From: Tenacibaculum skagerrakense
GTDB taxonomy: Bacteria > Bacteroidota > Bacteroidia > Flavobacteriales > Flavobacteriaceae
Assembly: GCF_004345825.1 (NCBI RefSeq)
Contig: NZ_SLXM01000007.1
Location: 1-64,000, forward strand
Reading direction: 5' to 3'
Length of the DNA: 64,000 nucleotides
Shown here: in pieces, positions 7,150 through 50,359 of the stretch
How the letters are laid out: the number at the start of each line of letters is the position of its first letter
Position numbering within the stretch: the stretch's first letter is position 1
Notes under the pieces: generated by a model
The model's input: only the letters and a program-made list of their open reading frames with translations
What the model was told of the DNA's origin: nothing
The model's database searches: none
Made by a program: the position numbers and the translations under genes

Positions 7150-7220
7150 GGTGTCGTGGCCGAGTGGCTAGGCAGTGGTCTGCAACACCATCTACAGCGG
7201 TTCGAATCCGCTCGACACCT
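7150..7220 (+). tRNA. tRNA-Cys (GCA anticodon)
   Basis: A full cloverleaf can be drawn. The acceptor stem is GGTGTCG with CGACACC, the D-stem is GCC/GGC, the anticodon stem GTGGT/ACCAT encloses the loop CTGCAAC (anticodon GCA), and the T-stem AGCGG/CCGCT encloses TTCGAAT. The discriminator base is T, as expected for cysteine tRNAs. The CCA end is not encoded. Confidence 0.96.
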
Positions 7221-48473: not shown

Positions 48474-48836
48474 ATGTCATCAGTAATTAACATCAAGGAA
48501 AAGTTCAATTTATTTACAGACCAATGGTCTCCTAAAAAAGTTGCAGAATTAAATGGTCAACAAGTTTTATTAGCTAAAATACAAGGTGAATTTGTATTTC
48601 ATAAACACGATGATGAAGATGAATTGTTTATGGTTATAAAAGGACAACTACAAATAGATTTAGAAGATGATTCTGTTATCATAAATGAAGGTGAATTTTA
48701 TATAGTTCCAAAAGGAGTTTTACATAAACCAATTGCAAGAGAAGAAGTTCATGTGTTGCTTTTTGAACCGTTATCTACTAAACACACAGGAGATGTTCTT
48801 GCTGACATAACTGTAGAGACTTACGAATCTATTTAA
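48474..48836 (+). CDS. Small cupin-domain protein
   Basis: The 120-residue protein is a single cupin barrel. Motif 1 is present with His-His-Asp-Glu-type ligands (HKHDDEDELFMVIKGQL, about residues 42-58, includes H, H, D and E), and motif 2 is GEFYIVPKGVLHKP (about 73-86). Single-domain cupins of this size bind a metal or small ligand, and the substrate cannot be inferred. It ends the operon with the DUF6503-like lipoprotein, and the tandem small-RNA array begins 93 nt downstream. Confidence 0.85.
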   Translation: MSSVINIKEKFNLFTDQWSPKKVAELNGQQVLLAKIQGEFVFHKHDDEDELFMVIKGQLQIDLEDDSVIINEGEFYIVPKGVLHKPIAREEVHVLLFEPLSTKHTGDVLADITVETYESI

Positions 48837-48928
48837 TTGATTTTTCCATTCAACGAGAAATAGCATCCATTCACCTAAAGATGGAGGTAATAAAACTAAA
48901 AGTTATGCTGTCAGCTTCTTTTTGGTTG

Positions 48929-48936
48929 TACTTTTG
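48929..48936 (+). promoter_or_regulatory. -7 box of small-RNA unit 1
   Basis: TACTTTTG is a perfect TAnnTTTG. The paired upstream repeats seen before units 2-4 are missing here, so unit 1 may be regulated differently. Confidence 0.65.
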
Positions 48937-48939
48937 GAG

Positions 48940-49059
48940 TGTTAATAGTAGTAAAGAAAATTTAAAAAGTAATAATCCCCAAAACAAAATACTTTTTCAT
49001 TTTTTTGAGTTAAAAAAATAATCTCTTACAAGCCCCAAATGTAAGAGATTTCTTTTTTT
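48940..49059 (+). ncRNA. Tandem small RNA, copy 1
   Basis: The predicted transcript of about 120 nt starts in the conserved GAGTGTTAATAG after the -7 box. Hairpin 1 pairs AAAAAGTA (48964-48971) with TACTTTTT (48990-48997) and exposes ATCCCC in its loop. A conserved unpaired TTCATTTTTTTGAGTT follows. Hairpin 2 (49020-49050) is an 11-bp perfect stem, AATCTCTTACA with TGTAAGAGATT, with loop AGCCCCAAA, followed by TCTTTTTTT, and forms the terminator. No reading frame of useful length exists. It is homologous to copies 2-4. Confidence 0.8.
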
Positions 49060-49110
49060 ATAAGTTATCTTAACTCTTGCTATGTCTTCTTCAAACAAAA
49101 GTAAATTTCA

Positions 49111-49160
49111 TTAGTCTACAGATAACAACAACTTATCTACAGTAAGAATTAGCACATCGA
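49111..49160 (+). promoter_or_regulatory. Paired direct repeat and ACATCGA box upstream of small-RNA unit 2
   Basis: TCTACAG occurs at 49115-49121 and again at 49136-49142, exactly 21 bp apart. ACATCGA at 49154-49160 ends 30 bp before the -7 box. The same layout recurs before units 3 and 4. Two direct repeats at two helical turns, upstream of a promoter without a good -33 element, suggest an activator site; the ACAG-type half-sites resemble those of LytTR regulators. Confidence 0.55.
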
Positions 49161-49190
49161 ATTTTGGTAAAATAATTTGGTAATGCTAAG

Positions 49191-49198
49191 TACTTTTG
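49191..49198 (+). promoter_or_regulatory. -7 box of small-RNA unit 2
   Basis: TACTTTTG is a perfect TAnnTTTG, 262 bp after the box of unit 1. No TTG stands 19 bp upstream. Confidence 0.65.
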
Positions 49199-49201
49199 AA
49201 G

Positions 49202-49323
49202 TGTTAATAGTAGTAAAGAAAATTTAAAAAGTAAAATCCCTAAAAAAAAATATACTTTTTCATTTTTTTGAGTTAAAAAGCCCGCCTCTTACAAGCCCCA
49301 AATGTAAGAGGTTTTTCTTTTTT
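49202..49323 (+). ncRNA. Tandem small RNA, copy 2
   Basis: The predicted transcript of about 122 nt is the closest relative of copy 1: GTGTTAATAGTAGTAAAG is identical in both. Hairpin 1 pairs AAAAAGTA (49226-49233) with TACTTTTT (49253-49260), with ATCCC in the loop. The TTCATTTTTTTGAGTT stretch is unchanged. Hairpin 2 has the stem CCTCTTACA/TGTAAGAGG (49285-49311) with the same AGCCCCAAA loop, then a T-rich tail. Relative to copy 1 the lower stem changes from AAT/ATT to CC/GG with pairing kept. Confidence 0.8.
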
Positions 49324-49373
49324 ACAAACTTCATAAATCGGGTTTAAATCCTAATTTAAAAAGCTAAATTTTA

Positions 49374-49424
49374 TTAATCTATAAATAGTAACTGTTTATC
49401 TATAGTAAAAAAAGGAAACGTCGA
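49374..49424 (+). promoter_or_regulatory. Paired direct repeat and ACGTCGA box upstream of small-RNA unit 3
   Basis: TCTATAA (49378-49384) and TCTATAG (49399-49405) are 21 bp apart. ACGTCGA (49418-49424) ends 30 bp before the -7 box, exactly as in unit 2. Confidence 0.5.
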
Positions 49425-49454
49425 ATACTTGATTAACAGAAAGTTAAATAGATA

Positions 49455-49462
49455 TATCTTTG
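49455..49462 (+). promoter_or_regulatory. -7 box of small-RNA unit 3
   Basis: TATCTTTG is a perfect TAnnTTTG, 264 bp after the box of unit 2. Confidence 0.65.
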
Positions 49463-49465
49463 AAG

Positions 49466-49595
49466 TGTAAATAGAAAATAAAGTAATCCCTATTAAGTTT
49501 TATTTTTCATTTTGAGTTTGAATTAAAGTTTTGTGATTGATTAAATCATGTCAGCTCTCTTACTAGCCCCTACTGTAAGAGAGTTTTTTGTTTTT
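49466..49595 (+). ncRNA. Tandem small RNA, copy 3
   Basis: The predicted transcript of about 130 nt starts GTGTAAATAG. Hairpin 1 uses a different stem sequence, AAAATAAA (49475-49482) with TTTATTTT (49499-49506), but keeps ATCCC in the loop. The TTCATTTTGAGTTTGAATTAA stretch follows the same pattern. Hairpin 2 pairs CTCTCTTAC (49555-49563) with GTAAGAGAG (49575-49583), with a loop containing AGCCCC, followed by TTTTTTGTTTTT. The different stems with conserved loops are evidence for selection on RNA structure. Confidence 0.78.
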
Positions 49596-49642
49596 ATAAG
49601 AATTGTGTAATTCAAAGAGAGAGAAAAAAACAAACAACTTAA

Positions 49643-49693
49643 CTAATCGAGTAAATTAAACAGTTAATCTACAGTAAGCAATTCGAACATCGA
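49643..49693 (+). promoter_or_regulatory. Paired direct repeat and ACATCGA box upstream of small-RNA unit 4
   Basis: A degenerate TCGAGTA (49647-49653) and TCTACAG (49668-49674) are 21 bp apart. ACATCGA (49687-49693) ends 30 bp before the -7 box. ACAGTTAAT at 49660-49668 is also a good LytTR-like half-site. Confidence 0.5.
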
Positions 49694-49723
49694 TTTGCAA
49701 CAAGTTTAAAAGAAAACCAGTAC

Positions 49724-49731
49724 TATCTTTG
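49724..49731 (+). promoter_or_regulatory. -7 box of small-RNA unit 4
   Basis: TATCTTTG is a perfect TAnnTTTG, 269 bp after the box of unit 3. Confidence 0.65.
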
Positions 49732-49734
49732 AAG

Positions 49735-49872
49735 TGTAAATAAGAATATTATAAAGTATTTATCCCCTTAAAATACAATTATTCATTATTTGAATTAAAA
49801 GTTTTTATATTTATTTGGTTAACTATTCAAAGTCCTTTTACAAGCCCCAAATGTAAAGGGATTTTTCTTTTT
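49735..49872 (+). ncRNA. Tandem small RNA, copy 4
   Basis: The predicted transcript of about 138 nt is the most divergent copy. It starts GTGTAAATAAG. Hairpin 1 pairs GTATTT (49756-49761) with AAATAC (49771-49776) around a tight loop ATCCCCTTA. TTCATTATTTGAATTAAAAG matches the conserved unpaired stretch. Hairpin 2 (49833-49861) has the stem TCCTTTTACA with TGTAAAGGGA, including one G-T pair, and the loop AGCCCCAAA, followed by TTTTTCTTTTT. Confidence 0.78.
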
Positions 49873-49963: not shown

Positions 49964-50359
49964 TTATTTTACTACAATACCTCTTTTATTTAAAAGTGAA
50001 ATCATACGTAAATTTCCTTCTTTAATAGTGTTTTTATCAAATTGGAAGGTTTTTTCAAAGATTTGATTTCCTTCAAAAAAAGAAACTTGAAATCGATTAT
50101 CTAATGAAAAAACATCAGGATGAATCATTTCCACTTTAACAAAAGAGTTTGTAGGAAGTTTATCAATTTTCTTTCTAAATACAGTAGTGGTTTTTGTTTC
50201 AGAAAATCCTTGAGAAACAATAATTACCATATCTAAATCAACATTCTTTTTATTGATTAAATACACATACCAATCATCAGAATCATGCGTTTCATTTGGT
50301 TCCAAAACAACAGCCATTTCTAGGTCAGTCACTTCAGAAATTTCAATATCTTTTCTCAT
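49964..50359 (-). CDS. Hypothetical protein next to pheS
   Basis: I do not recognise this 131-residue protein. It is soluble, acidic at the N-terminus and has a regular alternation of predicted beta-strands (for example DWYVYLINKKNVDLDMVIIV), so it is probably an all-beta domain. It begins 4 nt after the pheS stop codon and must share its transcript. Small unnamed proteins at this position occur in other flavobacteria as far as I recall. No signal peptide or catalytic motif is seen. Confidence 0.75.
   Translation of the reverse strand: MRKDIEISEVTDLEMAVVLEPNETHDSDDWYVYLINKKNVDLDMVIIVSQGFSETKTTTVFRKKIDKLPTNSFVKVEMIHPDVFSLDNRFQVSFFEGNQIFEKTFQFDKNTIKEGNLRMISLLNKRGIVVK

Follow-up and report, generated by a model that had tools for sequence, protein, structure and literature searches.

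What are the four direct repeats at 48929-49872, and what controls them? They lie in the window, which is the whole 64,000-nucleotide stretch of Tenacibaculum skagerrakense DNA analyzed here, in contig 7 of a 3.7-Mb genome (code G000). Each repeat consists of a promoter, a hairpin and a terminator. The array has a cupin gene on one side and, on the other, a 131-aa gene followed by pheS. An earlier interpretation of the letters alone (the sequence-only reading) had taken the repeats for a multicopy small RNA (sRNA) family, trans-acting or protein-sequestering, with one promoter per copy. Conservation in 14 of 166 genomes and covariation strongly support the structured RNA family and its separate promoters. 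The phrase "trans-acting or protein-sequestering" still stands as two competing readings. The phased sites upstream of the units, a second array, and the LytTR phosphorelay that adjoins it were absent from that reading, and they are the most informative parts. Taken as a whole, a family of sibling sRNAs driven by a phosphorelay is the explanation that we consider fairly probable.

The four copies have periods of exactly 262, 264 and 269 bp, as had been stated. The pattern TANNTTTGNAGTGTWAATA, derived from the copies, matched at 48929, 49191, 49455 and 49724 with 0 mismatches. These four were the only matches in the window at ≤2 mismatches, and 100 shuffles gave a mean of 0.6 and a maximum of 2. 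All four copies contain the described ATCCC(C) loop, TTCATT..TTGA stretch and AGCCCC terminator loop. Over 40 nt, identity of the terminator regions to the reference copy was 78-85%. A consensus scan for sigma-70 promoters and terminators found 5 promoter-like sites (shuffles, 5.5) and 0 terminators; the promoter type of the scan does not include TAnnTTTG, and its maximum terminator loop of 8 nt is exceeded by those of the units (9-11 nt).

Hairpin 1 is found in the predicted minimum-energy fold of copies 1 and 2. It appears in copies 3 and 4 when the 5' part is folded alone; a longer stem then reduces the loop of copy 3 to CCCT. The whole-unit folds of copies 1 to 3 had z values of -4.0, -2.9 and -2.3, with 1, 1 and 4 of 200 shuffles as good. 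The fold of copy 4 was not clearly above shuffles (z of -1.3; 23 of 200 as good).

The units almost certainly belong to an RNA family. The sequence-only reading had proposed an Rfam check and a covariance-model search of related genomes. In the Rfam 15 scan of the window, only a tRNA at 7150-7220, distant from the array, reached threshold. Weak array matches were far under the gathering scores, and no family was found in 13 related loci. A known RNA family was rejected on these results. In the open-licence literature, the RNA family was not described among the matches listed. The covariance model (R1) was built from 33 units of 7 genomes; one row (L174:5351-5489) has no promoter. At E<=0.001 it found the family in 14 of the 166 genomes searched in the genus, and each of these gave 1 to 13 matches. 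The matches per genome are lower bounds, as only 17 candidates were scored in each. Seven of the positive genomes were outside the model (G169, G149, G112, G184, G012, G083 and G114). In a sample of 397 genomes of the bacterial family (237 genera drawn), two were positive, both of this genus. With strict filters and 7 candidates per genome, none was found in 236 other genera, and weak relatives may escape such a search.

The pattern TANNTTTGNAGTGTWAATA matched 34 of 146 genomes of the genus, and some of these matches are units. It also matches apparent ordinary gene starts (e.g., L179, L183, L190, L191 and L192) and is therefore not a marker of the family. A plain DNA similarity search matched 21 of 59 relatives' genomes, with non-self matches that were short and AT-rich. 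Among 80 named pheS loci, R1 gave three matches (L071, L072 and L076) with E below 1e-9; a fourth, L107, had an E of 0.5. The loci closest by pheS (94%; L064 and L065) had no R1 match or array in the stretch examined. The terminator 15-mer ACAAGCCCCAAATGT also occurs in 32 viral contig stretches (L032-L063), probably by chance.

The family has two main homes. The first, the interval from the cupin gene to the 131-aa gene with pheS, is occupied by a unit or array in 11 of the 14 positive genomes (G000, G094, G102, G122, G149, G152, G160, G164, G169, G184 and G012). G112 contains three units near a gene adjoining a cupin gene (L222). The second home is beside a LytTR gene. In G000 this array 2 contains three units (C6:143645-144373; L216). 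There are arrays in other places too, for instance next to a gene for a TPR outer-membrane protein. Such an array end near a TPR outer-membrane protein gene was seen at L176 (G094), L181, L187, L229 and L235. In G094, polysaccharide-type genes (named by eye) come next.

The terminator helix is conserved as a structure. In 101 aligned matches, 98.4% of its cells were paired. Both sides had changed in 175 cells versus 34 in shuffles, and 0 of 500 shuffles were as high. Pairing fell to 25-57% when the partner was slid by 1-3 columns. The alignment had 100 distinct rows and was fitted to the tested helix. It included an antisense artefact of a terminator (L216:7324-7478, minus strand), which was excluded from the site, segment and loop counts. 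Hairpin 1 had been said to keep its pairing while its stem changes between copies. Inspection of a few units agrees with this, and the measured covariation is that of the terminator stem only.

Segments and loops were counted in 96 distinct units of >110 nt. TTTT(Y)CATT was present in 76 (shuffles, 5.2) and TTTGGTT[AG]A in 68 (shuffles, 1.4). CCCC was present in 70 (shuffles, 34.5), and two separate CCC runs in 55 (shuffles, 33.2). The terminator loop holds CCC in 63. The CCC runs were mostly unpaired (mean of 0.77 and median of 1.00, versus 0.41 over all positions), and the TTTGGTT linker was moderately unpaired (0.53). The segment TTTTCATT, at 0.39, was no more exposed than average.

The copies had been called noncoding. 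No open reading frame (ORF) of ≥20 aa is common to the four, and the longest ORF overlapping them (46 aa) begins upstream of the promoter. This also bears on the idea that some units encode a tiny hydrophobic peptide, which we regard as very unlikely. A 12-codon hydrophobic ATG-TAA frame does run across TTTTTTTCATTATAA in G094 and G152 (the second pheS-side unit of each) and in two units of G160. However, a 1-base deletion interrupts it in G102, and an ATG lies within 45 nt before TTTT(Y)CATT in just 14 of the 96 units. The 12-codon frame was also noted at L071, L076 and L174, in pheS-side units after the first.

We then turn to control. The promoter box TAnnTTTG corresponds to a consensus described at -12 to -5 (PMC9723704). 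Half-sites upstream of it were counted in 96 of 100 units, those of >100 nt with a complete 140-base upstream region. RTCKA cores at 34/35, 56/57 and 77/78 bp before TAnnTTTG occurred 51, 70 and 55 times in the 96 regions, against a mean of 1.6 cores per offset. At least two of the three cores (within 1 bp) were present in 64 regions and all three in 30. When the places were shifted by ≥3 bp, 0-4 units kept two cores. In the window, three cores precede each of units 2 to 4. The cores of unit 1 are degenerate: their places fit, but their sequences do not match RTCKA. The triplet pattern had unit 2 as its sole match in the window; at ≤1 mismatch it also arose in 19 of 100 shuffles. For LytTR proteins, 9-bp direct repeats 11-13 bp apart are described (PMC6193735). 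The half-sites agree with this spacing, with a period of 21-22 bp at fixed places upstream of the promoter. The half-sites, by the LytTR consensus, had raised the suspicion of a LytTR regulator ahead of the inspection of array 2. Control of the units by a LytTR protein is very likely.

Array 2 lies directly downstream of a LytTR gene, and the gene order is receiver, PAS histidine kinase, HPt and LytTR. The candidate regulator contains LytTR and receiver domains only (Pfam E of 4.5e-20 and 7.6e-20). The HPt gene scored 20.5 bits, below the Pfam cut-off of 24.6. Each of the 14 positive genomes carries such a LytTR gene together with HPt and kinase genes, and a unit begins 110-190 bp downstream of it. 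This unit is weak in G114 (47.6 bits) and is cut by the contig end in G112. The LytTR orthologues are 79-100% identical in the 14 genomes. None of the 152 other genomes of the genus has a LytTR gene of ≥79% identity, the next best being 73%. The regulator of the units is most likely this array-2 LytTR protein. It would bind the half-sites and activate, rather than repress, the units.

Some observations weigh against this assignment and the phosphorelay explanation built on it. The LytTR protein has at least 16 matches in G000, of which some may reflect only the receiver domain; another LytTR could therefore be the activator. The double-site pattern is only moderately specific, with 80 versus 17 control matches in 11 positive genomes, and it gave 1 versus 4 control matches in three related genomes without R1 matches. 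It also precedes other operons and is a lead, not proof. Among 18 more distant LytTR loci examined, 10 have no clear two-core geometry before the downstream promoter box. At five others (L254, L256, L258, L261 and L263), two cores in matching positions precede protein genes.

Downstream of LytTR at three of the distant loci (L252, L253 and L255) are a promoter with the site layout and an RNA-like sequence in which ACCCCTTA-like motifs recur. L252 is without the middle core, and the third core of L253 is displaced. R1 gave E values of 0.5 to 1.8, and the folds were no better than shuffles; homology is therefore unproven. The RNA-like gene is single, contains three ACCCC(T)TA-like repeats, and might be a distant or analogous RNA.

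Double sites of the LytTR type were also noted elsewhere. They lie 92-113 bp before a gene for a 360-aa secreted protein at L331 (G184 C3), L332 (G164) and G149 C1:1052089, and the G184 copy of the protein contains a TonB C-terminal domain. At L330 (G000 C2:83190) and L338 (G122 C7:71383), a double site lies inside a cluster of small, apparently secreted proteins. Two small secreted-type proteins of the L330 cluster were scanned and had no Pfam match.

The regular half-sites, and the adjacency of one array to the regulator gene, would also suit DNA-level decoys, that is, site clusters that titrate the LytTR regulator with the transcripts as by-products. We give this very little weight. The terminator stems covary and the RNA segments are conserved, which suggests selection on the transcript. 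Most positional orthologues have also been kept apart across species.

The separation of positional orthologues was measured by identity and in a tree, with 48 units of the five species that have the most similar units. Unit 4 was 88, 84, 81 and 71% identical to the last units of G122, G164, G184 and G149, compared with 60-67% to its own array neighbors. The three units of array 2 were 79-91% identical to same-place units across species versus 54-68% to paralogues. The contrast was less clear for unit 3 (64-76% to the matching unit in four species versus 58-67% between it and its paralogues), but the tree unites the five copies of unit 3 in a single clade with support of 100/100. The pair formed by units 1 and 2 of the window is recent (87% identity). 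Same-place units are mostly more alike than array-mates, and most paralogues are therefore old and have been kept distinct; others are recent.

Selfish or drifting repeats, produced by tandem duplication of a nonfunctional promoter-terminator unit, are a barely credible answer. Copy number does vary between species, recent copies occur (window units 1 and 2; near-identical units in G094), and the closest pheS loci (L064 and L065) have no array there. Drift does not fit identities of 71-91% across species for unit 4 and the array 2 units versus 54-68% between paralogues, with the less clear contrast of unit 3 (64-76 versus 58-67%). Nor does it fit the covariation, the two conserved sites, and the exact co-occurrence with the LytTR orthologue.

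How would the transcripts act? In the phosphorelay explanation, tandem sRNA arrays at two or more chromosomal places would be transcribed gene by gene from housekeeping-type promoters, usually preceded by two or three LytTR-type half-sites. A signal would pass from the kinase to HPt to LytTR and would switch on many sRNAs (~120-190 nt) together. The sRNAs would act in trans, pairing with target mRNAs via the C-rich loops, the UUUUCAUU stretch and the UUUGGUU linker. The UUUUCAUU stretch is conserved, yet it is predicted to be no more exposed than average. Base-pairing in trans is the weakest step of the explanation, and we lean toward it only slightly.

Pairing was tested on 324 ORFs from the window and 20 sampled stretches; each ORF was the longest ATG frame, of ≥150 aa and with an unverified start. 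Neither the C-rich loops nor the linker had a preference for translation starts; for the loops, 18-27 of 30 shuffles preferred starts at least as much. UUUUUCAUU favored starts over gene interiors, with 0 and 3 of 30 plain shuffles as low in two versions. This preference was mostly lost when CAT was kept (7-15 of 60 as low in five versions), and the segment was unpaired at 0.39 versus an average of 0.41. The linker complement was not enriched in the genome, with 50 matches (4 of them sRNA genes) versus 61 for the reversed control. A search for Hfq, positive in 5 of 14 control genomes, gave no match in the genome. Nor did a search for RRM_1 proteins, which was positive in 2 of 14 control genomes, one of them Bacteroides. 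No known chaperone is therefore at hand, and with no RRM_1 protein there is no RbpB candidate.

The lack of a start-codon preference in the C-rich loops also suits the main rival, protein-titrating RNAs. The C-rich loops would mop up an RNA-binding protein, and the phosphorelay would set its free amount. CsrB and RsmY titrate protein in this way via GGA loops. The CCC runs are mostly unpaired, there are up to 13 matches per genome, and L252, L253 and L255 carry repeated ACCCCTTA-like motifs in one predicted transcript. However, two separate CCC runs are present in 55 of 96 units and CCC in the terminator loop in 63 of 96. Other segments are conserved too (TTTT(Y)CATT in 76 of 96 and TTTGGTT[AG]A in 68 of 96), and no candidate protein is known. 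We consider titration rather unlikely, at a little over one chance in five.

The signal that enters the phosphorelay may involve H-NOX. Two of the 14 positive genomes (G112 and G114) have an H-NOX gene (Pfam HNOB; NO-sensor-type, for nitric oxide [NO]) in the operon of the array-adjacent LytTR. H-NOX is located elsewhere in the genome in ten others, G000 included. G083 had partial matches only, and G012 had none. Of 24 genomes searched, with or without the sRNAs, 22 contained H-NOX, which is therefore not specific to the sRNA family. In G000 it belongs to a second, paralogous phosphorelay operon (L348; C9:9000-21000). The promoter region of the receiver/H-NOX/kinase operon contains a LytTR-type double site in two genomes, G094 and G102. 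The order at L348 is receiver, H-NOX, two kinase-like genes, HPt-like and LytTR, then TPR; H-NOX and LytTR were identified by search and the other genes by eye. Its LytTR is 61% identical to the array-adjacent LytTR.

A tentative and rather doubtful extension is that an NO (or oxygen) phosphorelay running from H-NOX through kinase and HPt to LytTR gained a many-copy sRNA output in marine Flavobacteriia, independently of the H-NOX/LuxU/LuxO/Qrr circuit of Vibrio. Tandem arrays would provide dosage, and old, functionally distinct siblings would be kept in order. If the NO link is true, the two circuits would be strikingly convergent, and the finding would be relevant to the surface and host-associated life of marine bacteria. 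An independent H-NOX circuit would have the same logic as that of Vibrio, built from different parts.

To our knowledge, few sRNA regulons are known in Bacteroidota. A large sRNA family with a named candidate regulator and a defined site layout offers a directly testable regulon. If the LytTR switch is true, a little-studied group gains a many-copy RNA output of a sensor pathway, as in Vibrio and Listeria. The features of the array and its flanks are given in Table 1. The flanking 131-aa gene had no Pfam or NCBIfam match.

Table 1. Positions of the array features and flanking genes in the window
Feature	Position	Strand	Remarks
sRNA unit 1	48941..49060	+	Inferred +1 to T-tract; R1 match 48929-49060, 88 bits
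sRNA unit 2	49203..49323	+	R1 match 49191-49323, 89.2 bits
sRNA unit 3	49467..49594	+	R1 match 49455-49594, 96.1 bits
sRNA unit 4	49736..49872	+	R1 match 49724-49872, 114.6 bits
-7 box TAnnTTTG, unit 1	48929..48936	+	Pattern match
-7 box TAnnTTTG, unit 2	49191..49198	+	Pattern match
-7 box TAnnTTTG, unit 3	49455..49462	+	Pattern match
-7 box TAnnTTTG, unit 4	49724..49731	+	Pattern match
Degenerate LytTR-type half-site triplet, unit 1	48852..48898	+	AACGA, ACCTA, AACTA; 77, 56 and 35 bp before box
LytTR-type half-site triplet, unit 2	49114..49160	+	GTCTA, ATCTA, ATCGA; 21-bp period
LytTR-type half-site triplet, unit 3	49377..49424	+	ATCTA, ATCTA, GTCGA
LytTR-type half-site triplet, unit 4	49646..49693	+	ATCGA, ATCTA, ATCGA
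ATCCCC, hairpin 1 loop, unit 1	48975..48980	+	Predicted fold
ATCCC, hairpin 1 loop, unit 2	49236..49240	+	Predicted fold
ATCCC at hairpin 1 loop, unit 3	49486..49490	+	AT paired, CCC in loop; 5'-part fold
ATCCCC, hairpin 1 loop, unit 4	49762..49767	+	5'-part fold
Terminator hairpin and T-tract, unit 1 (AGCCCC loop)	49020..49058	+	Alignment, fold
Terminator hairpin and T-tract, unit 2	49284..49320	+	Alignment, fold
Terminator hairpin and T-tract, unit 3	49553..49594	+	Alignment, fold
Terminator hairpin and T-tract, unit 4	49829..49872	+	Alignment, fold
Flanking cupin gene	48474..48836	+	Cupin_2; conserved neighbor of array in relatives
Flanking 131-aa gene, then pheS	49964..50359	-	Conserved neighbor in relatives

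By analogy, the array family may work like Qrr, LhrC and the csRNAs, which are sibling sRNAs under a response regulator; relatedness is unproven. The Rfp RNAs of Flavobacterium psychrophilum are sRNAs from the same bacterial family and were compared by description, not sequence. The TAnnTTTG box was mapped there, and the main text of the source does not mention paralogues for them (PMC9723704).

The FopS RNAs of Bacteroides are closest by phylum. They share multiple paralogues and a Rho-independent terminator with the array family. FopS is described with 12-15 paralogues per genome, a Rho-independent terminator and a single-stranded 5' seed, and it binds RbpB, an RRM-1 protein; the main text of this source does not mention a tandem arrangement (PMC11697453). 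FopS binds the start regions of susC-type mRNAs. The Rfam scans gave no FopS match, the presence of a FopS model in that Rfam copy being unconfirmed. Membership in FopS is not supported, with no RRM_1 protein in the genome and no Rfam match, and the sequence-only reading had rightly claimed no homology when it named FopS as a precedent.

The AgrA P3 promoter makes the regulatory RNA RNAIII, which is one long RNA. The present family differs in having many short siblings beside an HPt phosphorelay. AgrA of Staphylococcus is a LytTR regulator that drives transcription at direct repeats near -60 (PMC4227749). The csRNAs of Streptococcus (CiaRH) are 2-6 homologous sRNAs, distal or tandem, under response-regulator control (PMC4211561). 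They have another regulator and belong to another phylum, and sequences were compared via Rfam only.

LhrC1-5 of Listeria (LisRK) are multicopy and two-component controlled, with their own promoters. They have exposed CU-rich stretches in loop A, the linker and the terminator loop, and the CU-rich loop of LhrC4 pairs with the Shine-Dalgarno region (PMC5880928). The array family is likewise multicopy, with candidate two-component control, its own promoters and predicted exposed C-rich loops. It differs in that these loops have no start preference (324 sampled genes). LisR is not known to be a LytTR protein.

The Qrr RNAs are Hfq-dependent, and LuxO is a sigma-54 activator. Here the candidate regulator is LytTR, not LuxO (the LuxO model scored 33.4 versus a cut-off of 800), G000 had no Hfq match, and the units had no Rfam match. 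The units have TAnnTTTG promoters and lie in tandem arrays, whereas the Qrr genes are distal. In Vibrio, several sibling Qrr RNAs are coactivated by a response regulator (PMC4211561), and H-NOX/HqsK feeds NO into LuxU/LuxO (PMC3759921). The gene architecture here is similar: HPt (20.5 bits, under the cut-off) and LytTR genes are located beside an array, and H-NOX is encoded in the array-adjacent LytTR operon in 2 of 14 genomes (G112 and G114).

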